Shown one piece after another: positions 31,983 through 48,393 of a stretch of 64,000 nucleotides of DNA; position 1 is the stretch's first letter, and each line of letters begins with the position of its first letter. This stretch comes from Caballeronia sp. SL2Y3. GTDB taxonomy: Bacteria; Pseudomonadota; Gammaproteobacteria; Burkholderiales; Burkholderiaceae. The translations under genes were made by a program, and so were the position numbers. The notes under the pieces were generated by a model. That model was not told the origin of the DNA. It did not search any database and saw nothing but the letters and a program-made list of their open reading frames with translations. Location of the stretch: NCBI RefSeq assembly GCF_022879575.1, contig NZ_CP084263.1:62001-126000 (forward strand). Reading direction: 5' to 3'.

Positions 31983-33206
31983 TCATAACGTCGGTGCGGG
32001 GCCGGCGCCGATTCGTACGCGAAAGAGGGCGTACGGCTTCGTGCGCTCGTCCTTGCCGGCGTGGAAGACCGGTTGGCGATGCAGCTGATTAGCGGTGAAG
32101 TACAGATATCCGTCGGTGCCGACCGACAGCGTGTCGGGCCACAACACGCGCGGCTCATGCACGATGGTCCGCCACTCGCCGCCCGGTTCGAGCTTGCGGA
32201 TGGAGTCGTGCTCGTAGTCGCCTGCATACACGGCGCCGTTCGCATCGCTTTCGAGTCCGTCAGATGCGCCCTTCTCGCCGAGGTCTTTCACAGCGGCCGA
32301 AAGTTGTGCTTCGCTGATCGACGGATCGCGCAGCATGGCGGTGGGCACCGAATACAAATGCCGGCTGGAAAGCGGGCAGTAGTAGAGCGTCGTGCCATCG
32401 GGCGAAAGCGCGATGCCGTCGGAGGCGACGGTGAACGGCGCGCTCTTGCCGTTGGCGTCCCGTACTTTGAGGGTTTCGCCTTCGACCACGGGCACGAAGC
32501 CCGGATAGGCGGACGTCGAAACGTCGCCGGTAAGGCGTCGCAATGCCTTGCCGGAATCCAGATCGATCACGATCAATCCACCGGTGCCGCTCAACGACGA
32601 GTCGGTCACATAGGCGACGCCCGCTTTGCCGACGCGAAAGTCGAACCGCACGTCATTCACGTAGGTCTGTTCGCGCATGACATCGGCCGGAAAAACCAGC
32701 GTCTTCACGACGCGATCCGTCGCCAGGTCGATGGCGACGAGCTTCGCGCCTCCGGCTACCGGACTCGAAAAGTTGGGCGCGGCCGTGTCGAGTATCCACA
32801 GTCGTCCGCGGCCGTCTGCAACCACGCTTTGAACGCTCAGAAAGTGCGTGCCGGCATGAGAAGCGTCGGCGCGATTGATCTCCGCATTCGGATACGCGAC
32901 TACCTTGCCGTCGCGCAACTCGGCCACGGTGGCCTGAACGTCGTCGCCCCAGCGCGGAAAGTTGACGAAGATCCGCCCGGTCTCGGTGACGCTCACGCCC
33001 GTGGGCATCGGACCCGTGAATGTCGCGACTGTTTCGATCGACCCGATGGTGCGTTCCGTGGCTTGGTTCGACGACGGCCGATCCGACGCCGCCGCCTGAG
33101 CGAGCGCGGGATGCGCCACCACGCCGGCGAAGCCCAGCGCCGCTGCAATTGCAATGGCGGCGCGGCGTATCGGATGGCTGTTGTTTTGTCGATGGATGGA
33201 ATGCAT
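31983..33206 (-). CDS. Secreted major-royal-jelly/SMP-30-like beta-propeller protein
   Basis: The protein has 407 residues. A signal peptide ends near AHPALAQ-A, then comes a propeller domain related to the yellow/MRJP family: GRIFVNFPRW, VVADGRGRLWILDT, YVTDSSLSGTGGLIVID, DGIALSPDGTTLYYCPL, SDGLESDANGAVYAGDYE. The start is placed at 33206 (GGAGAAC upstream) rather than at 33260. Bacterial members are poorly characterised; they may bind small aromatic or lactone ligands in the periplasm. Confidence 0.85.
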   Translation of the reverse strand: MHSIHRQNNSHPIRRAAIAIAAALGFAGVVAHPALAQAAASDRPSSNQATERTIGSIETVATFTGPMPTGVSVTETGRIFVNFPRWGDDVQATVAELRDGKVVAYPNAEINRADASHAGTHFLSVQSVVADGRGRLWILDTAAPNFSSPVAGGAKLVAIDLATDRVVKTLVFPADVMREQTYVNDVRFDFRVGKAGVAYVTDSSLSGTGGLIVIDLDSGKALRRLTGDVSTSAYPGFVPVVEGETLKVRDANGKSAPFTVASDGIALSPDGTTLYYCPLSSRHLYSVPTAMLRDPSISEAQLSAAVKDLGEKGASDGLESDANGAVYAGDYEHDSIRKLEPGGEWRTIVHEPRVLWPDTLSVGTDGYLYFTANQLHRQPVFHAGKDERTKPYALFRVRIGAGPAPTL

Positions 33207-33263
33207 GGCTGTTCTCCATTTGTGTTGTTCTTGCATGCGGCGCAAGCGCGAGGTCCGCACGGA

Positions 33264-34271
33264 CTAGAAGTTTTCCAGCACGATTTTTCCGCGAGCACGA
33301 CCGCTCTCGATGAGCGCATGAGCGCGGCGCAGGTTCGTTGCGTTGATGGTTCCGAAGTGGTCGGCCATCGTGGTGCGCAGCGTGCCGTCGTCGATGAGCG
33401 CCGACACGCGGTTGAGAATCTCGTGTTGCCTGACCATGTCGGCGGTTTCGAACAGCGACCGCGTGAACATCAGCTCCCAATGCAGCGAAATGGACTTGCG
33501 CTTGAGCGGCATGGCATCGAGCGTGTCGGGGTCGTCGATGACGCCGAGCCGGCCTTGAGGCATGAGTGCCTCGACAAGCTGCGGATAGTGAAGGTCCGTC
33601 TGTGTCAGGCTCGCGACGTAACGCACCTGCGGCGAGCCGATACGGCGCAGGCCTTCCAGCAAAGGTTGCGAGTGATCGATCACGTCATGCGCGCCGAGTG
33701 CTTCGACCCATTCACGCGTTTCGGGGCGGGAAGCGGTGCCAATGACGCGCAGGTTGGTGAGGCGGCGTGCGAGCTGTGTGAGCATCGAGCCGACGCCGCC
33801 AGCCGCGCCGACGATTAGCAGCGCGTCCCCCGCGCCTCCGTTCTCCGCCACGCCGAGCCGGTCGAAGAGCAGTTCCCACGCAGTCAGCGACGTCAACGGA
33901 AGCGCTGCGGCTTGCGCGTTCGAGAGCGTGGCGGGCTTGCGGCCGGCAATGCGCTCGTCGACGAGCGCGTATTGCGCATACGCGCCGGGGCGGGCAATGC
34001 TTCCCGCGTAGAAGACCTTGTCGCCTCGCGCGAACATCGACACCTTGTCGCCCACGGCCTCGACGGTTCCGACCGCGTCCCAGCCGAGCACGCGCGGCGC
34101 TTCGGCCGGCGAGCCCATGCGCACTTTGGTATCCACCGGATTGACGGCGATCGCCTCGATTTTCACCAGCAGGTCGTGCGGCGCCGGTTCAGGCGTCGGC
34201 AGGTCGAAATCGACGAGAGCGTCGGGATGGTCGGCGGGAAGGCCGTGCTGCGTATAGACCACTGCTTTCAT
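33264..34271 (-). CDS. Zinc-type alcohol dehydrogenase-like quinone oxidoreductase
   Basis: This is a 335-residue MDR-superfamily enzyme: KAVVYTQHGLP start, PRVLGWDAVGTVEAVG, and the NAD(P)H motif GAAGGVGSML near residue 155. The structural zinc Cys cluster is absent, so it is of the quinone oxidoreductase type. GGAGC lies ahead of the ATG at 34271. It is divergent from the LysR gene and starts the run that includes the MRJP-like and nitroreductase genes, suggesting a detoxification cluster. Confidence 0.9.
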   Translation of the reverse strand: MKAVVYTQHGLPADHPDALVDFDLPTPEPAPHDLLVKIEAIAVNPVDTKVRMGSPAEAPRVLGWDAVGTVEAVGDKVSMFARGDKVFYAGSIARPGAYAQYALVDERIAGRKPATLSNAQAAALPLTSLTAWELLFDRLGVAENGGAGDALLIVGAAGGVGSMLTQLARRLTNLRVIGTASRPETREWVEALGAHDVIDHSQPLLEGLRRIGSPQVRYVASLTQTDLHYPQLVEALMPQGRLGVIDDPDTLDAMPLKRKSISLHWELMFTRSLFETADMVRQHEILNRVSALIDDGTLRTTMADHFGTINATNLRRAHALIESGRARGKIVLENF

Positions 34272-34405
34272 GTGCATGCTCCAGGTACGTGATGGCGGAT
34301 CGCGGCGGTCACCGTGCTGATGTGCCGCTGTCGTGTGGCTGAATTCTGGCGCGACCGCATAGGTGTGAGAAAGCGGTTAAATTAGGCAGGACTTTCACTC
34401 CTGGA

Positions 34406-35344
34406 ATGAAAATGGTCCGCCTGGAAGACCTGCAACTCTTTGTCAGAACCGCGGCGCTCGGCAGCTTTTCGAATGCGGCGAGGGAGGCAGACCTCCTGCC
34501 CGGCCAGGTCAGCGCGGCCATCTTGCGGCTGGAGCGAGAGCTCGACGTCCGGCTCTTCGCGCGGTCCACGCGCAGTCTCAAGCTCACCGCAGAAGGCGAG
34601 CAGTACCTTCCCTACGCGGAAGAAGTTCTCTCCATGCTCCATGAGGGCCGCGAACGTCTGCATGGAGAACGACATGCCCTGCAAGGCATCTTGCGTATCG
34701 CGGCGCCATCCGATCTGGGCCGCAATAGCCTGCTGCGTTGGCTGGGAGCGTTTCGCGATCTCCATCCGAAGCTGACCTTGCGGCTGTCGTTGTCGGATCA
34801 TGTGACCGACGTCTTTCGCGATCCGGTGGACGTGGCCATCCGGTATGGGTCTGCGGAACAGGCGAGCTACGTTGCGCTTGCCCTTGCCGTGAACAACCGA
34901 AGGGTGTTGGTGGCCTCGCCGGAGTACCTCAAGCGGCGCGGCTCACCGGCTTCTCTCGATGAACTCGTGTTGCACGACTGCCTGCCCTATGTCCTGGCGG
35001 GGCGCGTCTACGACCGCTGGTCGTTTCCATTCAACGGCGTGCGGCGGCAGGTTACGGTGAGGGGCACGCTGCTGTGTGACGACGCGGAAATCGCAAGGCG
35101 ATGGGCGGTGGAAGGCCGGGGCATCGCCTATAAATCGTGGCTCGACGTGCACGACGACGTGCTGGCCGGCCGATTGCAGGTTCTGTTGCCCGACCAACCG
35201 GGGGAAACGGTGCCGCTGAACCTCGTGTGTCCGCACCGCCGTCAGTTCTCGCCGGCGGTGAGATATCTTCATGCCCATCTCAGCGAACGGGTGCTGCCGA
35301 TGAGCGCGGCCATGCGCGAGTACGCGAGCGTGCGCGTCGAATGA
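34406..35344 (+). CDS. LysR family transcriptional regulator
   Basis: The protein has 312 residues with an N-terminal winged HTH (LEDLQLFVRTAALGSFSNAAREA, shown in part; residues about 5-65) and a two-lobed effector domain (about 90-300). It resembles the CrgA/YhjC-like group that controls divergent oxidoreductase genes. It is divergent from the quinone-reductase-like gene with 134 bases between, so it probably controls that run. ATG at 34412 is an alternative start. Confidence 0.92.
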   Translation: MKMVRLEDLQLFVRTAALGSFSNAAREADLLPGQVSAAILRLERELDVRLFARSTRSLKLTAEGEQYLPYAEEVLSMLHEGRERLHGERHALQGILRIAAPSDLGRNSLLRWLGAFRDLHPKLTLRLSLSDHVTDVFRDPVDVAIRYGSAEQASYVALALAVNNRRVLVASPEYLKRRGSPASLDELVLHDCLPYVLAGRVYDRWSFPFNGVRRQVTVRGTLLCDDAEIARRWAVEGRGIAYKSWLDVHDDVLAGRLQVLLPDQPGETVPLNLVCPHRRQFSPAVRYLHAHLSERVLPMSAAMREYASVRVE

Positions 35345-35592
35345 CGGTGAAGCGTTTGAGCGCGGCACCGACTCTGCCGCTCCGACGAGCGCGCGGCATG
35401 AAGCGAGCCGGTGAAGCCGGTGATTGCTCAGTGGAGACATCAGCGAGTTGTCGCATGCAATCGCACGCAATTCCGAGCGATGCTGCCACCTTGGTCGGTC
35501 CCCCTAATGTTTTATCAGACGGGCCGGCGTCGATCACGATACGCCCCCGTCACGAAGCGATGCATTCAGGGCCCTCCTATTTTTGACCGCCG
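35345..35592. other. Intergenic region before the amide-operon promoter
   Basis: No gene is seen. Together with the leader annotated next, the whole gap between the LysR gene and the binding-protein gene is 418 bases. Confidence 0.4.
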
Positions 35593-35622
35593 TTGACAAC
35601 TGAAAATTCGACGCATTAGACT
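35593..35622 (+). promoter_or_regulatory. Sigma-70-type promoter of the amide operon
   Basis: A perfect -35 TTGACA at 35593-35598 and a -10 TAGACT at 35617-35622 (4 of 6) are spaced 18 bases apart. The expected start point, about 35629, falls just before the first leader hairpin. Confidence 0.6.
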
Positions 35623-35628
35623 GCCTCA

Positions 35629-35674
35629 TACCTCGCGGCCTGACAAAGATGTCCGCCCGAGGACCCGGCACAGA
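35629..35674 (+). promoter_or_regulatory. ANTAR two-hairpin antitermination motif
   Basis: Hairpin 1 has GAC/GTC closing the hexaloop AAAGAT (35645-35650), with further G-C pairs below after mismatches. Hairpin 2 has GGC/GCC closing the hexaloop ACAGAA (35670-35675), and AGG (35660-35662) can pair with CCT (35680-35682). Both hexaloops have A at position 1 and G at position 4, the features that ANTAR proteins recognise. The 3' side of hairpin 2 is shared with the 5' side of the terminator, so the two structures exclude each other. The ANTAR protein AmiR is encoded 7 kb downstream in the same operon. Confidence 0.8.
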
Positions 35675-35716
35675 AGCCCCCTGACGAACCGACGGTTCGT
35701 CAGGGGGCTTTTTTTT
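35675..35716 (+). terminator. Rho-independent terminator in the amide-operon leader
   Basis: A perfect 16-bp stem (35675-35690 with 35694-35709) with a three-base loop is followed by a run of eight T, 46 bases before the first start codon of the operon. Its position inside a leader and its overlap with hairpin 2 mark it as a regulated attenuator. Confidence 0.92.
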
Positions 35717-35762
35717 GTTCGCATTTTTCCGTTGTTTCTGCGCCCACTTCTGGAGAATCCGC

Positions 35763-36995
35763 ATGTTGCTGAAGCCGTCGGGCTGGATGCGTCTCGCCCT
35801 TACCGCAGGATTTGCACTGACTTCGCTCGCATCGAGTGCCGCCGATCCCGTTAAGATCGGCCTGCTGGAAGATGCCTCGGGAAACTTCGCACTGGCGACG
35901 ATCCCGAAGATTCACGCCACGCAGCTCGCCGTCGATGAGATCAACGCCAAGGGCGGCATCCTCGGACGTCCGGTTTCACTGATCGCCTACGACACTCAGT
36001 CGGACAACACCAAGTTCCAGGAACTCGCACGGCGTCTCGTGCAGACCGACAAGCCGGATGTGATCTTCGGCGCCTTCTCCAGCGCATCGCGCGAGGCCAT
36101 ACGGCCCATCATGGATCGCGCGCATCAGCTTTACTGGTACGACAATCAGTACGAAGGCGGCGTTTGCGATACCAACACCTTCGTCACGGGCGCGGTCCCC
36201 GAGCAGCAATTCTCGACACTCATTCCGTGGATGATGCAGAAGTACGGCAAGAAGGTGTACACCATCGCCGCCGACTACAACTTCGGGCAGATTTCCGCCG
36301 AATGGGTGCGCAACATCGTCAAGGAGAACGGCGGCACGATGGTCGGCGAGGAATTCATTCCGCTGTCCGTATCGCAGTTCGGCCAGACGATTCAGAACAT
36401 CCAGAAGGCCAAGCCCGACTTCGTCGTGACCTTGCTGGTCGGCGCGAATCAGGCTTCGTACTACGAACAGCAGGCGTCGGCCCATCTGAACCTGCCGATG
36501 GCGAGTTCGGTGAACGTCGGTCAGGCGTATGAGCACAAGCGCTTCAAACCGCCCGCGCTCAAGGACATGTACGTGACCGCGAACTATGTGGAAGAAGTCG
36601 ATTCGCCCGCCAGCAACGACTTCAAGAAGCGCTTCCACGCGAAGTTCCCGAACGAGCCGTACATCAATCAGGAAGCGGCGAACGCGTACGACGCCATCTA
36701 TCTCTACAAGGCGGCCGTCGAAAAGGCCAAGACGACGAATCAGGACGCGGTGCGCAAGGCGCTCGAAACCGGCATCTGCACGGAAGGCGCGCAAGGCAAG
36801 GTCTGCATGGACCCGAAGAGCCATCACGCGAGCCATACCATTTACCTCGTGCATGTGAAGGACGATCACTCGGTCGATATCCCGAAGGTCTGGAACGACG
36901 TCCAGCCGTACTGGCTAGGCAAGGTGGGCTGTGATTTGCCGAACAAGCCGGATCACCGCCAGTACACGCCGTCGAACCTGCCCAAGAAGTCCTGA
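35763..36995 (+). CDS. Amide/urea-type ABC transporter substrate-binding protein
   Basis: The protein has 410 residues. A Sec signal peptide ends near SLASSA-AD, and the mature type-1 periplasmic-binding domain starts DPVKIGLLEDASGNFALA. It is of the HAAT/UrtA-FmdD group, close in layout to AmiC, with Cys-containing segments GGVCDTNTF and GICTEGAQGKVCMDP. GGAGAATCC precedes the ATG at 35763; the longer frame upstream runs through the terminator. It would bind urea or a short-chain amide, given the formamidase and amiCR genes in the same operon. Confidence 0.9.
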   Translation: MLLKPSGWMRLALTAGFALTSLASSAADPVKIGLLEDASGNFALATIPKIHATQLAVDEINAKGGILGRPVSLIAYDTQSDNTKFQELARRLVQTDKPDVIFGAFSSASREAIRPIMDRAHQLYWYDNQYEGGVCDTNTFVTGAVPEQQFSTLIPWMMQKYGKKVYTIAADYNFGQISAEWVRNIVKENGGTMVGEEFIPLSVSQFGQTIQNIQKAKPDFVVTLLVGANQASYYEQQASAHLNLPMASSVNVGQAYEHKRFKPPALKDMYVTANYVEEVDSPASNDFKKRFHAKFPNEPYINQEAANAYDAIYLYKAAVEKAKTTNQDAVRKALETGICTEGAQGKVCMDPKSHHASHTIYLVHVKDDHSVDIPKVWNDVQPYWLGKVGCDLPNKPDHRQYTPSNLPKKS

Positions 36996-37060
36996 TCCGC
37001 GCCGGCGCGCGCTCGCAGAACATAGCGAACGCGCGTCCGCCTTCTGAACGTGGAGCATGC

Positions 37061-37930
37061 ATGGCCACCTTTTCCGTTCTCTACTCGCTCATCTATCAGT
37101 TCGGCGACAGCTTCGCCTATCTGGTGCTCGCGGCGCTCGGTCTCGCGGTGATCTTCGGCATGATGGGCGTGATCAATCTCGCGCACGGCGAGTTCATCAT
37201 GTGCGGCGCGTATGTGACGATCATCGCGGCCAAGCGCGGGTTGCCGCTTCCGCTCGCCATGCTGCTCGGCGCGCTCGCGGCGGCGCTCGCGGGTGTCGTG
37301 ATCGAACGGCTCGTCATTCGTCACCTGTACGACCGCTTGTTCGATTCCGTTGTGGCGACGTGGGCCATCAGCCTCATCGTGCAACAGACCATGCTGCTCG
37401 TCGCCGGTCCTTCGATAGAAGGCATCGGCACGCCGTTCGGCTCGTTCTCGCTCGGCGACTATTCGTTTTCGACATATCGCGCGCTGTTGCCGGGCATTGC
37501 GCTCGCCATCCTGTTCGGGCTGTACGTGCTGTTCTTCAAGACGAACTACGGCGTCTGCGCCCGCGCCACGATTCAGAACGCCAACATCGCGCAATGTCTG
37601 GGGCTGCGCACGGACCGGCTCTACACGCTGACTTTCGCGCTCGGCGCGGGGCTCGCCGGGCTGACCGGCGCGCTGTATGCGCCGACCATGACCGCAGTGC
37701 CGACGATGGGCAGCAACTTCATCGTGCAGGCGTTCGTGTCGGTGGTCGTCGGCGGCGCGAACGTGATCGCCGGGACGACGCCCGCTGCGGCCGTGCTTGC
37801 CGTCATCCAGACCGCGCTTACGGCCTCGTATGGTCAGTTGTTCGGACAGATCGGCTTGCTGGTGACGGTCATCGTGGTGATCCGGCTGATGCCGCAAGGT
37901 CTCGGCAACCTCTTTTCCCGCGCGCGCTAG
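37061..37930 (+). CDS. ABC transporter permease, LivH/UrtB type
   Basis: The protein has 289 residues, with about eight membrane segments and the family hallmark VINLAHGEFIMCGAYV near residue 40. FALGAGLAGLTGALYAP and VVGGANVIAGTTPAAA are the second half motifs. It forms the channel with the LivM-type permease encoded 9 bases downstream. Confidence 0.92.
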   Translation: MATFSVLYSLIYQFGDSFAYLVLAALGLAVIFGMMGVINLAHGEFIMCGAYVTIIAAKRGLPLPLAMLLGALAAALAGVVIERLVIRHLYDRLFDSVVATWAISLIVQQTMLLVAGPSIEGIGTPFGSFSLGDYSFSTYRALLPGIALAILFGLYVLFFKTNYGVCARATIQNANIAQCLGLRTDRLYTLTFALGAGLAGLTGALYAPTMTAVPTMGSNFIVQAFVSVVVGGANVIAGTTPAAAVLAVIQTALTASYGQLFGQIGLLVTVIVVIRLMPQGLGNLFSRAR

Positions 37931-37939
37931 GAGGCAAAC

Positions 37940-39019
37940 GTGAAGCAAACGAAAGAGCCTTCGCGGCTGTTCCCGGCCCGCGCCACGCGCGCGGTCCAGT
38001 ACGTGCCATGGCTCGTGGGGCTCGCGCTGCCGCTCGTCGTGGACGCCACCACGAGCGGCAATCTCGCCTACTGCCTGTTGTGGGCCTTCGGCGCGGTCGG
38101 CCTCGCCGCGATGTGGGGCTATGGCGGCATCCTGTCGTTCGGGCAGACGGCCTTCTTCGGCTTGGCGGGCTACAGCTACGGCATCTTCACGCTGAACTAC
38201 GGCGATGCCTGGTTCGATTCGTGGCTGGGTCTCGTCGCTGGACTGGCGGTGAGCGTCGTCGTGGCGGCGCTGATCGGCTACATGATCTTCTACGGCCGCA
38301 TCAAGGGCGTGTTCATCGGTATCGTCACGCTGTCGGTGACGCTCGTGCTCGAAACGTTCATGTCGCAGACGGCTGGCCCGCAGTGGGCGATCGGCGAAGC
38401 GCGTCTGAACGGCTACAACGGCATGGGCGGCATGCCGCCGCTCACGATCCCGTGGCCTGGCGGCCCGCTGACGCTGGAAAACGCGAGCTTCTACTACCTC
38501 GTGCTGATCCTGTTGATCGTGGTCTATGCCGCGATGCGCAGGCTGCTCGACGGCACGTTCGGGCTCACGCTCATCGCCATTCGCGAGAACCCGCAGCGCG
38601 CCGAGATGCTGGGCGTCGACATCCGCCGGCATCAGCTTCTGGTATTCGTGCTCGGGTGTACGCTCGGCGGATTGTCGGGCGCGCTGTACACGGTCTGGGG
38701 CTCGTACATCACGCCGTCGACGATGGGCCTCACCTCCGCCGCCATGCCCGTCATCTGGGTGGCGACGTCGGGCAGGAAGAGCATCGGCGGAACTGTTCTC
38801 GGGACCGCGCTGCTGGTGTGGCTTTCGCAGAATCTCGCGGTGTACGGCAGCCAGTACGCGCTCATCCTGCTCGGCGCGATTCTCTTGATCGTCGTGCTGG
38901 CCGCGCCGGAAGGTCTGCTGCCGTTCGTGACACGGCATCTGCGGCGTCTGAGCCGCCGCCCGGGTCAGGATGCGCGTCTCGGCGGCGCATGTCTTAAACG
39001 TGAGGAGGGCAAGTCATGA
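37940..39019 (+). CDS. ABC transporter permease, LivM/UrtC type
   Basis: The protein has 359 residues, with a GTG start preceded by a perfect AGGAGG. Motifs GGILSFGQTAFFGLAGY and IRENPQRAEMLGVD belong to the LivM/UrtC family. The stop overlaps the next start by four bases. Confidence 0.92.
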   Translation: MKQTKEPSRLFPARATRAVQYVPWLVGLALPLVVDATTSGNLAYCLLWAFGAVGLAAMWGYGGILSFGQTAFFGLAGYSYGIFTLNYGDAWFDSWLGLVAGLAVSVVVAALIGYMIFYGRIKGVFIGIVTLSVTLVLETFMSQTAGPQWAIGEARLNGYNGMGGMPPLTIPWPGGPLTLENASFYYLVLILLIVVYAAMRRLLDGTFGLTLIAIRENPQRAEMLGVDIRRHQLLVFVLGCTLGGLSGALYTVWGSYITPSTMGLTSAAMPVIWVATSGRKSIGGTVLGTALLVWLSQNLAVYGSQYALILLGAILLIVVLAAPEGLLPFVTRHLRRLSRRPGQDARLGGACLKREEGKS

Positions 39020-39726
39020 CCACGCTCCTGGAAACGCGCGGACTCAAGAAGCACTTCGGCGGCGCGCATGTCATCAACGGCATCGACTTCAGTATCGATG
39101 CAGGCGAGATCCGCTGCGTGATCGGCCCCAACGGCGCGGGCAAGAGCACGTTCTTCAAGCTCATCACCGGAGAGCACCGGCCGTCCGAGGGCAGCGTGAT
39201 GTTTCTCGGCCAGGACATGAGTCATGTGCTGCCGCACGAACGCATTCGCATGGGCATGAGCATCAAGTTCCAGATTCCCGGCGTGTTCCCGGATCTGAGC
39301 GTGCGCCAGCATCTGCAGTTGTCGCTGCATCGCGCGAAGGACGACCGGCCCGAAAGCCTCGATGAGCTGTTGCAGCGCTTCATGCTGGAAGACGAGGAGC
39401 ATGTGCTCGCTCGCAATCTGTCGCACGGCAAAAAGCAATGGCTCGAAATCGCCATGGCGGTCTCGCTGCGTCCGAAGCTGCTCTTTCTCGATGAACCCGT
39501 TGCGGGCATGTCCGTCGAGGAAACGCATGCGACCGGCGAACTCATCAAGCGTCTCTCGGCGGCCGGCCTCACGATGATGGTCGTCGAACACGACATGACC
39601 TTCGTCAAGCAGATCGCCTCGCGGGTGACGGTGCTCCACGGAGGAAGCCTGCTCGCCGATGGTCCGCTCGACGAGATCCTCGCCCGCGACGATGTGGCGG
39701 AAGTCTATCTGGGGAAGAAAAAATGA
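39016..39726 (+). CDS. ABC transporter ATP-binding protein, LivG/UrtD type
   Basis: The protein has 236 residues. Walker A is GPNGAGKST (about residue 38) and Walker B is LLFLDEPVAGMS. The signature is NLSHGKKQWLE, the UrtD-type variant of LSGGxxQ, which favours the urea/amide group over branched-chain amino-acid LivG. Start and stop overlap both neighbours (ATGA). Confidence 0.93.
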   Translation: MTTLLETRGLKKHFGGAHVINGIDFSIDAGEIRCVIGPNGAGKSTFFKLITGEHRPSEGSVMFLGQDMSHVLPHERIRMGMSIKFQIPGVFPDLSVRQHLQLSLHRAKDDRPESLDELLQRFMLEDEEHVLARNLSHGKKQWLEIAMAVSLRPKLLFLDEPVAGMSVEETHATGELIKRLSAAGLTMMVVEHDMTFVKQIASRVTVLHGGSLLADGPLDEILARDDVAEVYLGKKK

Positions 39727-40430
39727 GTGCGTTGCTCCAGGTGTCGGGTGTGGAAGCGGGATATGGCGGCGGCCGCGTGCTCAACGGCGTGTCGTTCGGC
39801 GTCGGGCGGGGCGAAGTGCTCGCGCTGATCGGCCGCAACGGCGTCGGCAAGACGACGCTGATGCGCGCGTTGATCGGCCTGATCGGTCTCGACGGAGGAA
39901 CGATCGAACTGGATGGCGATGACATCGGCCACGAGAAGCCCTACGTTCGCGCGCAGCGGGGCATGGGCTACGTGCCGCAGGGCCGCGAGATCTTCGGCGC
40001 GTTGACGGTTGCGGAGAACCTGCAGGTCGGCGCGCAGGCGAATCGCGCGCAGGCGGCGCAGATGAAGGATAAGGTCGTCGGCTACTTTCCGATTCTGAAG
40101 AAGCGCTACCAGCAGAAAGCGGGAACCATGAGCGGCGGCGAACAGCAGCAGCTTGCCATCGCGCGTGCGCTGATCAGTTCGCCGAAGGTCGTGTTGCTCG
40201 ATGAGCCATCCGAAGGCATCCAGCCATCCATTGTCGATCTGATCGGCGAAACGCTTCAGCAAATCGCCCATGAAACAGGGATCGGCGTGGTGCTGGTCGA
40301 GCAGGACATGGGAATGGTCGAACGCATCGCGACGCGCTGCTGCGTGATGGACAAGGGCCGTATCGTCGAGACGCTGAGCCCGGCGCAGCTCGCGGACGAA
40401 CAACTGATTCGCCAGTATCTGGCACTGTGA
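39723..40430 (+). CDS. ABC transporter ATP-binding protein, LivF/UrtE type
   Basis: The protein has 235 residues. Walker A is GRNGVGKTT, the signature MSGGEQQQLAIARAL and Walker B VVLLDEPSEGIQPSIV. The EGIQPSIV ending is usual in UrtE. It completes the five-gene importer and is followed after 12 bases by the formamidase-type gene. Confidence 0.93.
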   Translation: MSALLQVSGVEAGYGGGRVLNGVSFGVGRGEVLALIGRNGVGKTTLMRALIGLIGLDGGTIELDGDDIGHEKPYVRAQRGMGYVPQGREIFGALTVAENLQVGAQANRAQAAQMKDKVVGYFPILKKRYQQKAGTMSGGEQQQLAIARALISSPKVVLLDEPSEGIQPSIVDLIGETLQQIAHETGIGVVLVEQDMGMVERIATRCCVMDKGRIVETLSPAQLADEQLIRQYLAL

Positions 40431-40442
40431 CGGAGACGAAAC

Positions 40443-41429
40443 ATGAAATGGCTTGAAGACTCGATCATGATGAAGCGTGGCGTCGGCGCGGATCGCGAAC
40501 CGGTGGAGCACCATCTGACCGAGGAAATGCAGAAGACGTATCACTACACCATCGGGCCGTACTCGCAGCCGGTGTTGCATGTGAAGCCAGGCGATCGCGT
40601 CGTGGTGGAAACGCGCGATGCGTTCGAAGGCAAGATCAAAGAGGAGACCGACAAGCCGTCCGAAGTGCTGCAGGTGCCGTTCCTCAATCCGCAGAACGGC
40701 CCGATCATGATCGAGGGCGCGGAGAAGGGCGATGTGGTCGCCGTGTACATCGAAAAGATGGCGCCGCGCGGTGACGATCCGCATGGCTTCTGCTGCATGA
40801 TTCCCAACTTCGGCGGACTGACGGGCACGGACTACACCGCGCTTCTGAACGAGCCGCTGCCGGAAGTGGTGCGCAAGATCAGGATCGACGAAGAAAACGT
40901 GTACTGGAGCAAGCGCAATACGCTGCCGTACAAGCCGCACATCGGCACGCTGAGTCTTTCGCCGGAGATCGACTCCATCAATTCGCTCACGCCCGACAAC
41001 CACGGCGGCAACATGGACGTGCCCGACATGGGACCGGGCAGCATCACGTACTTGCCGGTGCGCTCGCCGGGCGGGCGGCTCTTCATCGGCGATGCGCACG
41101 CCTGTCAGGGCGACGGCGAAGTCTGCGGCACGGCGGTCGAATATCAGAGCACGACGACCGTGCGCGTCGATCTCATCAAGAAGTGGCAGATCGACTGGCC
41201 GCGGCTCGAAAACGAAGACGCGCTGATGAGCATCGGCAGCGCGCGGCCGCTGGAAGACGCGACCCGCATTGCCTATCGCGAACTGGTGCTGTGGATGGCC
41301 GCGGAATACGGCTTCGACAAGTGGGACGCGTACATGATGCTGAGTCAGGTCGGCAAGGTTCGACTGGGCAATTTTGTCGATCCAAAATACACGGTTGGCG
41401 CGATGGTCGCCAAGCACTACCTCAAGTAA
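40443..41429 (+). CDS. fmdA: Acetamidase/formamidase family protein
   Basis: This 328-residue protein belongs to the FmdA/AmdA family, which hydrolyses formamide or acetamide to the acid and ammonia with a metal site and no Ser nucleophile. Visible motifs are GDRVVVETRDAFEG, ENDHGG-type SLTPDNHGGNMD, GRLFIGDAHACQGDGEVCGTAVE and the acidic residues in them. It is shorter than the 390-410 residue formamidases, close to the acetamidase-like subgroup. It would release ammonia from the imported amide. The symbol is by family. Confidence 0.88.
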   Translation: MKWLEDSIMMKRGVGADREPVEHHLTEEMQKTYHYTIGPYSQPVLHVKPGDRVVVETRDAFEGKIKEETDKPSEVLQVPFLNPQNGPIMIEGAEKGDVVAVYIEKMAPRGDDPHGFCCMIPNFGGLTGTDYTALLNEPLPEVVRKIRIDEENVYWSKRNTLPYKPHIGTLSLSPEIDSINSLTPDNHGGNMDVPDMGPGSITYLPVRSPGGRLFIGDAHACQGDGEVCGTAVEYQSTTTVRVDLIKKWQIDWPRLENEDALMSIGSARPLEDATRIAYRELVLWMAAEYGFDKWDAYMMLSQVGKVRLGNFVDPKYTVGAMVAKHYLK

Positions 41430-41498
41430 CGCTTCGGTCAGACGAATCCAAGGCAGCCGGCATCACGCGCGGGGCGTCCGTTCCGCGCGCATTCTAGA

Positions 41499-42665
41499 GT
41501 GCGTCACGAAATGGCTTTGTCCGATCCCATCCGAGTGGGCCTGCTGTGCTCGACGAGCGGCTCGACCGCCCTGCTCGAACAGTCTCAATGGCGCGGTGCG
41601 CGCCTCGCCGTCGAGGAAATCAATGCGCGCGGCGGCATTGGCGGGCGCGAGCTCGTCGCGATTCACTACGACCCCGCGTCCGATCCGGCCGTGTTCCGCG
41701 AGCTCGCCGAGCGGCTGATCGTGAAGGACGGCGTCAACACCATCTTCGGCGGTTACACGTCGACGAGCCGCAAGGCGATGCTGCCCGTCGTCGAGAAGCA
41801 CAACCGGCTTCTCATCTACGCGCAGATGTACGAGGGCTTCGAGTATTCGGACAACATCATCTACAGCGGCGCGTCGCCCAATCAGAACGGCGTGCAGCTG
41901 GCGGACTTCATGACGGAGACCTTCGGCGCGCGCGTGTACTTCGTCGGTTCCAGCTACGTCTATCCGTACGAATGCAACCGCACCATGCAGGAACTGCTGC
42001 TTCAGCATCCCGAAGGCGCGATCCTCGGCGAACGGTATCTGTCGCTCGACGCCACGCGCGAGCAGTTCGAGCAAGTGGTCGCGGACATCCGGCGCAAGTC
42101 CCCGGACTGGATTTTCAGCACGGTCATCGGCGCGACGGTGCCGTATCTCTACGACGCCTACGCGCACGCCGACTTCGATCCCTCGCGCATGCCCATCGGC
42201 AGCCTGAATACATCGGAGACCGAAATACATGCGATGCAGCGCGGCATCGCGGCAGGGCACATCACGGCAGCGCCCTATTTTCAGAGCGTCGATACGGAAG
42301 AGAATCACCGCGCCGTGGCGCATCACCAGTCGCGCTACGGTTCGGACACCCCGACGGACATGAACTGGGAGGCTGCGTACTATCAAATGCATATGTTCGC
42401 CGAAGCCTACGCACGGTCGGGTTCCGACGAGATCGGCGTCATCATGCCGCATCTTCTCGGATCGGAATACGCGGCGCCGCAGGGCCGGGTGCGTATCGAT
42501 CCCGTGAATCATCACATGGCGCTCTATCCGCGCATCGGCCGCGCGAACGCCGATGGCCAGTTCACCATTCTGCGCGAGTCGAAGTTCGCCGTCGGCCCCG
42601 ACCCGTACATGACGCGCCAGAAGCTCGGGGACTGGGTCACGAAGCTGAGCACGCGAGAGTACTGA
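41499..42665 (+). CDS. amiC: AmiC-like amide sensor (cytoplasmic binding-fold protein)
   Basis: The protein has 388 residues in the periplasmic-binding type 1 fold but no signal peptide; it begins directly DPIRVGLLCSTSGSTALLEQSQ (in part). YAQMYEGFEYSDNIIYSGASPNQN (in part), FVGSSYVYPYECNR and PTDMNWEAAYYQMHMF match AmiC, which holds AmiR inactive until an amide binds. The GTG at 41499 is given; ATG at 41511 is possible and neither has a good ribosome site. The amiR gene starts one base after its stop. Confidence 0.9.
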   Translation: MRHEMALSDPIRVGLLCSTSGSTALLEQSQWRGARLAVEEINARGGIGGRELVAIHYDPASDPAVFRELAERLIVKDGVNTIFGGYTSTSRKAMLPVVEKHNRLLIYAQMYEGFEYSDNIIYSGASPNQNGVQLADFMTETFGARVYFVGSSYVYPYECNRTMQELLLQHPEGAILGERYLSLDATREQFEQVVADIRRKSPDWIFSTVIGATVPYLYDAYAHADFDPSRMPIGSLNTSETEIHAMQRGIAAGHITAAPYFQSVDTEENHRAVAHHQSRYGSDTPTDMNWEAAYYQMHMFAEAYARSGSDEIGVIMPHLLGSEYAAPQGRVRIDPVNHHMALYPRIGRANADGQFTILRESKFAVGPDPYMTRQKLGDWVTKLSTREY

Positions 42666-42666
42666 C

Positions 42667-43317
42667 GTGAGCGCGCGAACAGACAGAGGTCAGCGAAGCC
42701 TCACGGGTTCGATTCTCGAGCGCAATGCACGGGTTGTCGTTTTTCATCCGGACGACGACGACGGACTGACGCTCACGAATCATCTCCGGCGCATGGGCTT
42801 TCAGGTCGAGCGATGCTGGCCGCCCACCGACACGCTGCCCGAGAAGACCGATCTCGTGTTTCGGGCGTTGCTGCCCGAAGAGCGCGCGCCGAAGGGCGAG
42901 TGGTGCGGGCCGGATGCGCCGCCCGTCATCTGCGTGGTGGCGTACGAGAACCCGACCTTCATCGATCAGGCGATCAAGATGGGATCGGACGGCATCGTCA
43001 CCACGCCGATTCGCGCCTCCGGCCTGCTGTCTACCGTGGTGATGGCGCTCTATCACGCGAAGCGCGCGCGTCAACATACGCAACGCATTGCGAGGCTCGA
43101 ACAGAAGCTGCTCGACAGCCGGCACTTGCAGGAAGCCAAGAGCATCTTGATGACCATGCATCGCGTGAGCGAGCGCGAGGCTTACGACATGCTGCGCGCG
43201 CAGGCAATGGAAAAGCGCGTGACCATCGACGACATCTGTCATTCGGTCATTCAGGCGGGCGAAGTCTTGCAGATCGCGCGCGGGCTGGATTCGGAGGACG
43301 GGCGCGACAGGGATTGA
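42667..43317 (+). CDS. amiR: AmiR-like ANTAR-domain antitermination regulator
   Basis: The protein has 216 residues. A receiver-like N-terminal domain (about 20-130, starting ARVVVFHPDDDDG) lacks a clear phospho-acceptor Asp. A coiled coil (about 130-155) leads to an ANTAR domain (about 145-200: EAKSILMTMHRVSEREAYDML, then TIDDICHSVIQAG). AmiR/NasT proteins bind paired hairpins in leader RNA and prevent termination; the matching leader is at 35629-35716. GTG start one base after the amiC stop. Confidence 0.92.
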   Translation: MSARTDRGQRSLTGSILERNARVVVFHPDDDDGLTLTNHLRRMGFQVERCWPPTDTLPEKTDLVFRALLPEERAPKGEWCGPDAPPVICVVAYENPTFIDQAIKMGSDGIVTTPIRASGLLSTVVMALYHAKRARQHTQRIARLEQKLLDSRHLQEAKSILMTMHRVSEREAYDMLRAQAMEKRVTIDDICHSVIQAGEVLQIARGLDSEDGRDRD

Positions 43318-43362
43318 ACGCGTCGCGCCGCCCATTCATCGACACATCAAGGAGCGGCGAAC

Positions 43363-44127
43363 ATGGACCTGCAACTGAAGGGCTTGAAAGCGATCGTGAC
43401 CGGCGGGACCAAGGGCATCGGTCTCGCGATCGCGCGGACGCTGGCTACCGAGGGCGCCGATGTGGCCATCTGCGCGCGCGACGAAGCGAGCGTCGCGGCG
43501 ACGGCGAGCGCGCTATCCGAACTGAGCGGCGCGCGGGCGTCGGGTGCCGCCGTCGATGTCTCCGATGGCGCCGCGCTGAAGGCGTGGGTCGAACGTGTCG
43601 GCGCGGAGTGGGGCGGGCTGGATATCGTCGTGGCCAACGTGAGCGCGCTTGCCATCGGCAACGACCTCGAATCGTGGCGCAAGGAGTTCGAAACCGATCT
43701 GCTCGGCACGGTCAATCTCGTCGATGCCGCCATGCCTTATCTCACCGCGAGCAAGGCGGCGTCGATCGTCGCCATATCGAGCGTGTCGGCTCGCGAGATC
43801 GACTTCGCGGCCGGACCTTATGGCGTCTTCAAGGCCGCAATCGTGCACTACATGCAGGGGCTCGCGAATCAACTCGCCTCGAAGGGCATTCGCGCGAACA
43901 CGGTCTCGCCGGGCAACGTGTACTTCGAAGGCGGCGTGTGGGACTGGATCGAGCATAACGATCCGACGCTGTTCGAGCGGGCGCTGGCGTTGAATCCGAC
44001 CGGTCGCATGGCGAGGCCGCAGGAGATCGCCAATGCAGTGGCGTTCGTCGCCAGTCCGGCAGCGAGCTTCGTGAGCGGCGCGAACATCGTCGTCGACGGC
44101 GCGCTCACACGCGGCGTACAACTCTGA
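43363..44127 (+). CDS. Short-chain dehydrogenase/reductase
   Basis: This 254-residue SDR has the nucleotide loop TGGTKGIGLAIA (residues 12-23), the NVSA-type motif (VVANVSAL), Ser in AISSVSAREID, and the catalytic Y-x3-K in GPYGVFKAA. It lies in the amide operon between amiR and an amidase, so it may act on an alcohol or keto group of an amide or its acid. The substrate is unknown. Confidence 0.88.
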   Translation: MDLQLKGLKAIVTGGTKGIGLAIARTLATEGADVAICARDEASVAATASALSELSGARASGAAVDVSDGAALKAWVERVGAEWGGLDIVVANVSALAIGNDLESWRKEFETDLLGTVNLVDAAMPYLTASKAASIVAISSVSAREIDFAAGPYGVFKAAIVHYMQGLANQLASKGIRANTVSPGNVYFEGGVWDWIEHNDPTLFERALALNPTGRMARPQEIANAVAFVASPAASFVSGANIVVDGALTRGVQL

Positions 44128-44156
44128 CGAACGGAACAACTCAACGGGAGCATCGA

Positions 44157-45698
44157 ATGGAAAAACGCAGCGCAATCGACGTCGATCTCGCGACCCTCAC
44201 GGTCGATGCCGTGCAGGACGGATTCAGCACCGGCCGGTTCACCGCGGAAGAACTGGCGCGCGCCTGCTTCGACTGGATCGAACGTCATAACGACAGGTAT
44301 AACGCGCTGATCTTCCTGAATCCCTCCGCGATCGACGATGCGCGCAGGATCGATGAGCGGCGCGCCGCCGGCGAAGCATTGGGGCCGCTCGCGGGCGTGC
44401 CGGTCGTCATCAAGGACCCGATGGACATGGTCGGCTTTCCGACCACGGCGGGATGGTCGAAGCTGTACAGCAAGACGGGCGGCATCGACCTGATGCCCGA
44501 GCGCGACGCGCCGGTTGTCGCGCGCATGCGCCGCGCGGGCGCGGTGCTGCTCGGCAAGACGAACGTACCGATTCTGAGCCACACCGGATCGCATGCGAAC
44601 GATAGCTGGGCGGGCCCGACGATCAACGTCGCGATGCCCGACCGCGTGCCGGGCGGCAGCAGCGCGGGAACGGCGGCGGCGGTGGCCTCGGGCATGGCGG
44701 TGCTCGGACTCGCCGAGGAGACCGGCGGGTCCATCCAGAACCCCGCATCGGCGCAGGACCTCGTCGGCATCAAGCCGACGATTGGGCTCGTGCCGAACGC
44801 GGGCGTGATGCCCTTGTCGGGCAATCGCGATGTCGTCGGGCCGATCGCGCGCAACGTGAGAGATGCGGCGCTGTGTCTCGACGTGATCGCCGGTTACACG
44901 AGCGAAGACCCGAAGACGCTCGCTGGCGTCGGCCGGCAGCCAGAAGGCGGCTATGCGTCGGCGCTCGACCGTGATGCGCTGCGGGGCAAGCGCATCGGTC
45001 TCTATGGTCCCGGGTGGCGCGACCAGCCGCTTTCGGACGAGGCCGCCGCGCTGTACGAGCGCGTGAAGGGCGAACTGGCATCGCTCGGCGCGACGCTGAT
45101 CGACGATCCTTTTCAAGGCTCCGGCTTTGCCGAACTGCGCAGGACGACCCCGCCGCTGCGCAATTTCGACGCGCGCGGTCTCGAATCCATCCCCTACGAC
45201 GTCGAGAAGTATCTGGAGCGTCTCGGTAAGCACGCGTCGATCAAGAGCTTCGCGGAATTCGCGGAGGCCACGAAAGACGAAGACGCTTTCGCACCGAACG
45301 GCGTGTTGAACTTCATGCACAGCCTGGCGGATTTCGAGGCCGCGCTGGCGAATCCGTCGCTGCCGCCGGAGATGCCCGAATTCATCGAACTGAAGGCGCG
45401 TTATCTGCGCATCTTCGAGCGCGTGTTCGACGAGCAGCGGCTCGATGCCCTCGTCTTTCCGCAGATGAGGTGCGAGCTTCCGCCGTTGCACGGAAAGGAC
45501 ACCATCCAGGAGACGACGGTGGGAGAGATCAACATCGCGGGCCTGCCGGGCATCGCGGTGCCTGCGGGTTACTACGCGTCGGGCTCGCCGTTCGGGCTTA
45601 TTTTCGTGGGTCGCCAGTGGGACGAAGCGGCGCTGCTGGGCCTCGCGTACGCCTATGAGCATGGCGCGGGCAGGCGGAAGACGGCAATGCTTACCTGA
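44157..45698 (+). CDS. Amidase (amidase signature family)
   Basis: This 513-residue enzyme has the Ser-cisSer-Lys triad: K86 (PVVIKDPMD), S168 (PGGSSAGTAAAV) and nucleophile S192 (ETGGSIQNPAS). Such enzymes hydrolyse amides to acid plus ammonia. As the last gene of the amide locus it probably handles larger amides than the FmdA-type enzyme. GGGAG precedes the ATG. Confidence 0.92.
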   Translation: MEKRSAIDVDLATLTVDAVQDGFSTGRFTAEELARACFDWIERHNDRYNALIFLNPSAIDDARRIDERRAAGEALGPLAGVPVVIKDPMDMVGFPTTAGWSKLYSKTGGIDLMPERDAPVVARMRRAGAVLLGKTNVPILSHTGSHANDSWAGPTINVAMPDRVPGGSSAGTAAAVASGMAVLGLAEETGGSIQNPASAQDLVGIKPTIGLVPNAGVMPLSGNRDVVGPIARNVRDAALCLDVIAGYTSEDPKTLAGVGRQPEGGYASALDRDALRGKRIGLYGPGWRDQPLSDEAAALYERVKGELASLGATLIDDPFQGSGFAELRRTTPPLRNFDARGLESIPYDVEKYLERLGKHASIKSFAEFAEATKDEDAFAPNGVLNFMHSLADFEAALANPSLPPEMPEFIELKARYLRIFERVFDEQRLDALVFPQMRCELPPLHGKDTIQETTVGEINIAGLPGIAVPAGYYASGSPFGLIFVGRQWDEAALLGLAYAYEHGAGRRKTAMLT

Positions 45699-46158
45699 GA
45701 CGCCTTTCGCGTTGCAGCGGCATTGCGGCGGGGGCTCGGCTGCGTGCTGTCGGCGTGCGCGTATGACATGGATGGTGCGCTGGAACCTGCGTGCACTAAG
45801 GGAACGAGATGGGCTTAACGCCGCCAGCTTAGTTGTGTGCGTCAAGTTGTGCAAAAGCCGGATGCCGGTGGTTTCAGTTGATCCTTCTGTGCTGCGTGCG
45901 GCGCGAAGAGCGTAGCCCGCAGCGCCGAAACGCGCGCGCTGTGCAGCAGCGCGCAACAACTCCTTCTTCTGATCGGCCAGCAAGGCCATGTTCAGATCAC
46001 GGCTGTCGTCCAGCCACGTTTCATGCGTTTCGCTACACAAGCCCTGGTCAGCCGAAGGCACGACGCATCGTTGGGAAAAATGCACACGCTGTGAAGCGCA
46101 AGTTGCATTGCGCGATGTGTTGATTTCCGGTGCACACTTTCACGAGCACCTAAGGCAT
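45699..46158. other. Gap downstream of the T6SS immunity genes
   Basis: These 460 bases hold no complete gene. Bases about 46110-46158 resemble those after the second DUF6708 copy (47380-47428), marking the end of the duplicated unit. On the minus strand a helical fragment can be read near 45900-46080 (ALLADQKKELLRAAAQRA); it may be the tail of a lost gene. Confidence 0.5.
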
Positions 46159-47130
46159 CTACGGTCGGATTCCTTTGCATGTCATCTCCACGGTTACCAG
46201 CGGTCTGGTTTCGCCTTCGAGCGCTTCGGGTGGTGGCGCCGAAGGGCAAATGCCGAAGATGCAGCATACGACCCACCAGCACAGTGAAACCGACATGGTG
46301 AGTGGGAACAGAACGGCCCAAAACGGAAGCAGCCAGCTCTTCTTTCCTTGGTGTTCGCCAGCCTCGCCGGTACGCCAAGGAACATAGTGCCGCCATGCCT
46401 CAAGTGGTGTGAGCACCACCTTGTGCAGAGGCAGCATCCACCAATTGGGCTCAGCCGGGATAGGAAGGCCTTCTGGACCATGAGCCATGAAGACTCGGAT
46501 GTATTCCCAAACCTGCGCCACGTATTCGATGCGTGGATCGGTTTGCGCATTGCTCATGATGCGAAACCACAGCATGCCGGGTGGTAAGCGCTTTTGCCAG
46601 AAGCGATGTGGTGGCAAGGGGTGAACACTTGGTAATAGCATTTCGAGCCGGAAGCGTGTAACGGCGCCAACGTTGCTCGCGTCTACGAATGAGTTGGGAG
46701 TCGCTTGCACGCCGTGCCAATCGGCTACGTATAGATGATGCCCTTCTTTAGCGTAGACACGTTGCGTGTGTCGATTGAAGTAGATATGCGACATCTTCAA
46801 CCGGCGTAGGTTAAGGGCCAGAAATGGACCAAAACAGACGATCGGAGCGGCATAGAGCAGAACGTTGAACAAAGCTTCGAACCAAGGATTAGGAGCCCCG
46901 AACTCTGTCGGGATTTTTGGCGAGGTCCATTGCAGCCAGAATGCGAACGGTATCCAGCCAACAATCGTAACCGAATACATGAGTGCCATCAGGACAGATA
47001 CTTCGAGAAACGGGCGCCGCAGGCAAAGCACCTGTTGTCCCATACCGATGAACTGGTCGCCAATGCGAGGAGATGCGCCGGTGGCTGCAGACTGCGGCGT
47101 CCATACTGTTTGAGGATTTGCCATGTGCAT
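46159..47130 (-). CDS. DUF6708-like membrane protein, putative T6SS immunity (copy A)
   Basis: The protein has 323 residues with two hydrophobic segments near residues 44-68 and 86-107, a soluble central domain, and another pair near 265-290. It resembles DUF6708 proteins found next to VasX-type toxins. It is almost identical to copy B (47429-48385) except residues about 59-107. The start is the ATG at 47130; in copy A the TTG that could start copy B further upstream is TTA. Immunity to the adjacent membrane toxin is inferred from position and membrane location. Confidence 0.75.
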   Translation of the reverse strand: MHMANPQTVWTPQSAATGASPRIGDQFIGMGQQVLCLRRPFLEVSVLMALMYSVTIVGWIPFAFWLQWTSPKIPTEFGAPNPWFEALFNVLLYAAPIVCFGPFLALNLRRLKMSHIYFNRHTQRVYAKEGHHLYVADWHGVQATPNSFVDASNVGAVTRFRLEMLLPSVHPLPPHRFWQKRLPPGMLWFRIMSNAQTDPRIEYVAQVWEYIRVFMAHGPEGLPIPAEPNWWMLPLHKVVLTPLEAWRHYVPWRTGEAGEHQGKKSWLLPFWAVLFPLTMSVSLCWWVVCCIFGICPSAPPPEALEGETRPLVTVEMTCKGIRP

Positions 47131-47384
47131 ACTCTTGCTTAACCACCGAGCACGAAGCTTGCGGTGACTTCTGCGGCTTCGCTCAAGCCCTGATTGGGGT
47201 GATAGCTCAGGCTAAGCTGAAGGTTTTTATCGCCTAGTGGCGCCATCCGGGGCCGGGTACCCAGTCAGCCGCGTAAAAGCAACACTGCTTAGAAAGGTTT
47301 GCGCGGCCAAACGGAAGCCCACGCCCGGCAGACGATTTGCCAGCGTGGTAATGGCCGTCACGTAGATCGCCCGTACGCTAACCT
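47131..47384 (-). pseudogene. Remnant of a duplicated VasX-like toxin gene
   Basis: Bases 47147-47250 match the last part of the intact toxin gene (48398-48505), and 47251-47384 match an internal part (about 49169-49302), with about 660 bases missing between. The stop codon is kept but is TAA instead of TGA. It sits upstream of immunity copy A just as the intact toxin sits upstream of copy B, so it is the leftover of a duplicated toxin-immunity pair. Confidence 0.9.
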
Positions 47385-47428
47385 ATGTATTGATTCCCGG
47401 CGCACACTCTCACGATTACCTATGGCAT

Positions 47429-48385: not shown

Positions 48386-48393
48386 ACTCTTGC

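Follow-up and report, generated by a model that had tools for sequence, protein, structure and literature searches.

A probable AmiR-type antitermination leader ahead of an amide/urea-type import operon in Caballeronia, and divergence of its P2 hairpin among relatives

Caballeronia sp. SL2Y3 carries, within the 64,000-nucleotide stretch of contig NZ_CP084263.1 analyzed here (the window), a run of ten genes that starts with an importer and also holds amidases and a putative sensor-regulator pair. The question raised by this locus is how transcription into the importer gene is controlled. The sequence-only reading had interpreted the DNA ahead of the first gene as an ANTAR antitermination switch in front of an amide operon. 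Our comparative sequence analysis supports this interpretation, and the leader elements on which it was built are confirmed. We consider it very probable (roughly 0.88) that 35593-35716 is a transcription-attenuation leader controlled by the AmiC-AmiR pair that the operon itself encodes. This mechanism corresponds to the published P1/P2 ANTAR antitermination model, for which the covered parts of two reports (PMC3369931, PMC3369936) already name the amiE leader and describe covariance matches in Burkholderia; the leader described here adds one case, and it is the divergence of P2 among relatives that merits specialist attention.

All elements of the leader lie on the plus strand. A sigma-70-type promoter (35593-35622) consists of TTGACA at 35593-35598 and TAGACT at 35617-35622 separated by an 18-nt spacer. 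It is the only sigma-70-like site in 33000-48500, a region in which shuffles average 3.0 such sites, and the promoter hexamers therefore prove nothing by themselves. The promoter is followed by a hairpin, P1 (35631-35662), with the hexaloop AAAGAT at 35645-35650, and by the putative antiterminator hairpin P2 (35667-35678), GGC[ACAGAA]GCC, with its loop at 35670-35675 and a stem of exactly 3 bp; both are seen in the sequence, in the predicted fold and in relatives. The intrinsic terminator (35674-35716) has perfect 18-nt arms (35674-35691 and 35693-35710) followed by a U tract. Both hairpins have stems of at least 3 bp, both hexaloops have A at position 1 and G at position 4 (A1 and G4), and nucleotides 35676-35678 are common to the 3' arm of P2 and the 5' arm of the terminator. 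Promoter, hexaloops and the terminator with its shared arm were thus all found where the sequence-only reading had placed them; the terminator stem, which it had given as 16 bp, is 17-18 bp long. The linker between P1 and P2 is 4 nt when counted from the full P1 stem and 13 nt when counted from the three loop-proximal P1 pairs, and the first gene starts with an ATG at 35763. In a single-strand fold, 35645 pairs with 35650 and closes the P1 loop; since position 6 of this loop is C in three of 21 close leaders, the pair is not conserved, and the open P1 hexaloop therefore rests on comparison rather than on the fold.

Folding energies point to termination as the default state. The predicted energies are -15.9 kcal/mol for P1, -3.9 for P2 and -34.4 for the full terminator; P1 with the terminator reaches -50.3 kcal/mol compared to -42.5 for P1, P2 and a shortened terminator. 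This difference of about 8 kcal/mol indicates that P2 needs help to persist. P1 and P2 together are the predicted fold in fragments ending at 35678, 35682 and 35690, in which the 3' arm of the terminator is still absent. In this folding model P2 can form first and then yields to the terminator, and a bound protein would be needed to keep it. A 12-bp stem of -22.7 kcal/mol stays beside the U tract in the antiterminated form; it might still terminate, which is a weak point of the antitermination model.

The layout is rare in shuffled DNA. An A1/G4 hexaloop with an overlapping terminator occurs at two sites in the window, and a P1 partner is present only at the 35593-35716 leader. Sixty dinucleotide shuffles of the whole window, read on both strands, produced 49 sites with a P2 that overlaps a terminator; three of these also had P1, none of the three with a terminator of at least 12 bp. 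When 35560-35780 was shuffled 5000 times and read on one strand, P2 with a terminator appeared in ten shuffles and P1 as well in none. The leader fold has a z-score of -6.1, with none of 200 shuffles folding equally well.

The ten genes that follow (35763-45698, plus strand) are separated by gaps of at most 70 nt and are therefore consistent with a single transcript. The first five encode an ABC importer: a substrate-binding protein with a signal-peptide-like start by eye (35763-36995), a UrtB-like permease (37061-37930), a UrtC-like permease of PF02653 (37940-39019), and UrtD-like and UrtE-like ATPases (39016-39726 and 39723-40430). Of the five, only the binding protein exceeds the cut-off of its urea ABC family (TIGR03669), the two permeases and two ATPases scoring lower than the urea-family cut-offs require. 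An acetamidase/formamidase family enzyme (PF03069, 40443-41429) comes next, and the run ends with an SDR-type oxidoreductase recognized by a family match (43363-44127) and an amidase-signature amidase (PF01425, 44157-45698). Neither a urease nor a match to an AmiE-type protein was found among the ten operon genes. As a side observation, two closely similar tandem ORFs lie beyond the run on the minus strand (46159-47130 and 47429-48397) beside a 1002-aa ORF, and the one that was scanned matches DUF6708 (32.9 bits, cut-off 27).

Between the acetamidase/formamidase and the oxidoreductase are adjoining genes for homologs of AmiC (41499-42665) and AmiR (42667-43317), and family and structure matches bear out the earlier assignment of an AmiC-type sensor and an AmiR-type ANTAR protein to the same operon. 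The AmiC homolog has a periplasmic-type binding fold, with 1qnl (E 4.4e-80) and 1pea (E 6.1e-80) as its best solved relatives, and is judged cytoplasmic from the lack of a signal peptide by eye. The AmiR homolog combines an AmiR_N pseudo-receiver with an ANTAR domain (PF21332, E 2.2e-26; PF03861 (ANTAR), E 1.3e-12) and has 1qo0_D (E 1.8e-19) as its best solved relative. One AmiC position that is T in 1pea and N in 1qnl is Q in the window protein. We take this position to be T106, which sets specificity, and 1qnl to be a butyramide variant; because of the Q the ligand need not be acetamide. In AmiR, Tyr173 and Met181 are kept in all 52 sequences compared, and by our alignment to chain 6wsh_A, presumably EutV, they correspond to EutV Tyr164 and Met172.

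From these parts we propose the following mechanism. In uninduced cells the nascent RNA would make P1 and then the strong terminator, and little transcription would enter the importer gene. On induction, cytoplasmic AmiC would bind a small amide or a urea-like ligand and let go of AmiR. That an amide frees AmiR and that the operon is induced by its substrate are both ideas taken from P. aeruginosa. The ANTAR domains of an AmiR dimer would then engage P1 and stabilize P2; binding to the leader RNA is inferred. With P2 stabilized, 35676-35678 would no longer be available to the terminator, whose stem would then be shorter and set back from the U tract, and the polymerase would presumably read through 35763-45698.

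Conservation of the leader was followed by scanning an AmiR alignment against genome contigs, which gave 216 relatives, of which the best 80 loci were kept. The closest among these 80 carry the names Caballeronia, Paraburkholderia and, in a few cases, Burkholderia. The strict A1/G4 layout was present in 17 of the 19 closest loci (L033-L051, AmiR identity at least 86%), always with a loop-to-loop spacing of 25; the contigs of the other two, L040 and L042, begin past the leader site. Leaders at L052-L055 (AmiR identity 66-72%) were missed by the strict scan and found by a covariance model at E 6e-14 to 5e-10. In an alignment of the window with the 17 leaders (18 sequences, 16 distinct rows), all 12 bases of P2, positions 1, 2 and 4 of the P1 loop, TTGACAA of the promoter and CTGGAGAA ahead of the start codon are invariant. 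An ATTTTTG block located 5' of the promoter (35579-35585) is also invariant or nearly so in these 18 leaders. The sequence-only reading had staked itself on conservation of A1, G4 and the overlap in orthologous leaders, and they are conserved: across the 21 close leaders (L033-L055) both loop positions of P1 are kept in 21, and in P2 A1 is kept in 20 and G4 in 21. Three of three P2 pairs and seven of 11 P1 pairs do not vary in the close set, and at three P1 pairs a single sequence is unpaired. With so little variation in P1 and P2, covariation supports the terminator alone, where three stem pairs show changes on both sides; two of these also have unpaired sequences.

At larger distances, the covariance model built from close leaders gave matches at E 6e-14 to 0.09 in farther loci, including Enterobacterales and Burkholderiales. 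An alignment built from covariance matches was dropped as it contained antisense matches to the palindromic terminator. A first scan free of loop letters was also replaced, having placed some leaders in another P1 register and reported several odd sites; the stem-only rule that took its place requires a closing C-G and a third G-C pair and leaves loop letters free. Together with one hand addition and nine covariance-only leaders, it led to 63 accepted leaders, which are spread over 59 of the 80 loci. Within 900 nt after 53 of the 63, on the same strand, there is a gene that matches either the AmiC or the importer binding protein of the window. In L075 the order is amiC-amiR, leader, importer gene. 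Among the 21 loci of the 80 without an accepted leader, 13 have an importer gene whose start coincides with or lies past the edge of the scanned DNA, and in the other eight (L042, L056, L084, L087, L091, L095, L100 and L110) no importer match was found upstream of amiC in the scanned DNA; L087, L091 and L100 have no accepted leader in the approximately 3 kb scanned upstream of amiC. Two AmiR-type leaders were seen around one amiC-amiR pair in L102 (3738, plus; 12334, minus), L097 (407, plus; 14466, minus), and L104 and L109 (8409-8493, minus; 10682, plus), as if one AmiR served two operons.

A class-wide search with AmiR_N found six of 369 genomes above the cut-off and yielded few usable loci. 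The stem-only rule accepted leaders in L165, L166 (two) and L167, and a looser scan was needed for L164; an extra minus-strand site in L165 that passed the rule was taken as false. Scans of L162 (a Pseudomonas plasmid) and L163 (a Rhizobium plasmid) gave no clear leader. In L164, L165 and L166, on plasmids of Aminobacter, Ancylobacter and Comamonas, AmiC-AmiR-like pairs lie beside urease genes and importer genes with urt or branched-chain-type annotation.

Within the genus, the leader goes with the regulator. Of 58 genomes, 20 have a close AmiR (identity at least 65%) and 38 do not; a leader (covariance match at E up to 4e-9) is present in 19 of the former and in none of the latter (Fisher p 2e-14, uncorrected for relatedness). 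The exception, G031, has its close AmiR divided between two frames, and the covariance scan found no leader there. Weaker matches up to E 0.01 were listed as well, many of them antisense to the terminator, and a single weak match (E 0.0012) was noted in G029, a genome without a close AmiR. Genome G000 encodes a second ANTAR protein (G000:C2:497227-497388, L031); covariance model R1 found no second convincing leader in this genome, the next best match, an antisense one aside, having E 0.5.

Could these features have a more ordinary explanation? A strong, correctly oriented terminator about 330 nt downstream of a LysR-type gene (34406-35344) could simply end that gene, with the likeness to P1 and P2 arising by chance. 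We regard this as very unlikely: a conserved promoter lies between the LysR-type gene and the terminator, the 5' arm of P2, which lies outside the terminator, is conserved beyond chance, and the leader is present where the LysR-type gene is not found, no best match (E up to 1e-15) occurring ahead of any leader in the DNA covered, which is about 3 kb or less upstream in close loci. Attenuation through a ribosome translating a leader peptide is the least probable alternative. By eye, an 11-codon frame does run from an ATG at 35649 to an end within the terminator arm, but it contains no run of codons for one amino acid, no ribosome site is visible 5' of its ATG, and this ATG, which lies in the P1 loop, does not exist in the three of 21 close leaders with the loop AAAGAC.

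A stable leader fold in which an alternative hairpin competes with the terminator would also be expected of a ligand-binding riboswitch or a protein-independent attenuator, with AmiR acting elsewhere. Against this, the ANTAR loop positions are among the conserved bases, the element occurs together with AmiR, and no Rfam family reached its gathering score anywhere in the window. In 35300-36000 there were 11 Rfam matches at E up to 10, all below gathering scores, the best by E being Bp2_287 on the minus strand (E 0.0046, 23.3 bits compared to 70) and mir-3938 (E 0.019); we hold this explanation to be highly improbable. A closer contender accepts the AmiR leader and asks what AmiC-AmiR senses, which, instead of acetamide or formamide, could be urea or a different amide-like nitrogen source. 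The binding protein above the TIGR03669 cut-off, the Q in AmiC where 1pea has T, and the distant AmiC-AmiR pairs that adjoin urt-type importer and urease genes are in favor of urea, while the acetamidase/formamidase and amidase, the lack of a urease among the ten genes and the sub-threshold scores of the other four importer proteins argue against it. We consider urea-type sensing somewhat unlikely, yet far more credible than the explanations weighed before it. Control by the AmiC-AmiR pair through P1 and P2 remains our preferred reading of the leader.

A further result of the AmiR survey concerns the loop of P2. The reality of this short hairpin was assessed in 46 leaders picked by P1 and terminator alone, P2 not being required: a 3-bp P2 with a six-base loop is present in 39 of these compared to 7.0 expected when the linker is shuffled. 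Seven fail; L079, L097 and L102 have seven-base P2 loops in the stem-only scan, and L058 and L087 among the 46 are probably not AmiR leaders. For a tally of loop letters we listed 66 leaders and removed L159, which is on the same contig as L088, leaving 65 (L160 and L161 are from separate genomes), many of which are near-copies. The tally includes L052, which failed the stem-only rule and was added by hand, and the nine covariance-only leaders, found by a model that itself favors the P1/P2 letters; L087 (covariance E 0.54) was left out. Five of 62 stem-scan rows judged false by eye were dropped (L038 6115, L060 17599, L072 437, L091 6833 and L092 17352), and these had P1 G4 in none and P1 A1 in two.

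Across the 65 AmiC-AmiR-linked leaders, P1 has A1 in 65 and G4 in 61, with A4 in L070, L105, L106 and L112. The P2 loop has six bases in 60 and seven in five; position 4 of the six-base loops is G in 27 and A in 33, with Alcaligenes and Variovorax among the bearers of a natural A4 leader. With the dropped rows restored, the counts are 67/70 for P1 A1, 61/70 for P1 G4 and 29/63 for P2 G4. None of the 13 leaders L057-L069, all but one from Enterobacterales, has P2 G4, and plasmid leaders outside the tally (L165 and two of L166) combine T1 with G4 in P2. The earlier description of A1 and G4 as ANTAR recognition features thus holds for the window and close leaders, but P2 of many distant AmiC-AmiR leaders departs from it. 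On an AmiR tree with several long branches and unsettled bootstrap values, the P2 G4/non-G4 label requires three changes, and the A4 cases therefore represent few independent events. In L070, L105, L106 and L112, G4 is absent from both P1 and P2, yet Tyr173 and Met181 of AmiR are kept. One tentative explanation, suggested by the loop letters and in our view possible but not the favored outcome, is that the protein of the AmiC-AmiR branch recognizes chiefly P1 and that P2 may be a bare 3-bp antiterminator stem with a loop free to change.

Comparison with known systems places the leader close to the P. aeruginosa amiE leader. According to the covered parts of the published descriptions (PMC3369931, PMC3369936), that leader also has P1 and P2 with A1/G4 hexaloops and a P2 overlapping the terminator, and AmiC and AmiR are likewise encoded within the regulated operon. 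The gene order and content differ. AmiE is first in the P. aeruginosa ami operon, whereas a five-gene ABC importer headed by the binding protein leads here and is accompanied by PF03069 and PF01425 enzymes, with no AmiE-type match; the window AmiR is a distant homolog of the P. aeruginosa protein (1qo0_D, E 1.8e-19). A Klebsiella plasmid acetamidase operon also brings together an ABC transporter, an amidase and amiC-amiR; it differs in having amiE, and the text covered mentions no leader (PMC13209695).

EutV-controlled eut and NasR-controlled nasF leaders share the dual hexaloops, A1 and G4 in both, and a short P2. The sensor differs, being a binding protein acting on a pseudo-receiver here and a kinase or NIT domain in the EutV and NasR systems. 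The P2 sequence GGC[ACAGAA]GCC departs from the published 13-nt AGCAANGRRGCUY only in its outer pair and in the second base of the loop. The 4-nt linker past the full P1 stem compares to 5-12 nt in E. faecalis eut leaders, in which linkers of 3 or 14 nt sharply cut induction, according to the covered part of PMC3369931. The same source reports for EutV that RNA binding was lowered by substitutions at loop positions 1 and 4, whichever hairpin carried them, and that a P2 G4-to-A change lowered induction (PMC3369931). NasR SELEX, as far as covered, preferred A1 and G4 in hexaloops (PMC7496416), and the covered part of the EutV-RNA crystal structure report argues that one dimer cannot hold both loops of one RNA simultaneously (PMC8934654). 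Our literature search, largely of titles and abstract openings, found nothing on the leader of this operon or on P2 without G4 in AmiR leaders.

These results link the amide/urea-type import operon found in Caballeronia and Paraburkholderia with a regulator and a class of ligands that can be tested. Of the 60 six-base P2 loops counted here, 33 naturally carry A at position 4, the replacement of G that weakened induction in the target of EutV, and the tyrosine that should stack on G4 is nevertheless kept in AmiR. If AmiR does read mainly P1, this would favor sequential or single-hairpin engagement over one dimer holding both loops. The collected leaders represent natural P2 variants that bear on how the ANTAR dimer uses its two hairpins.
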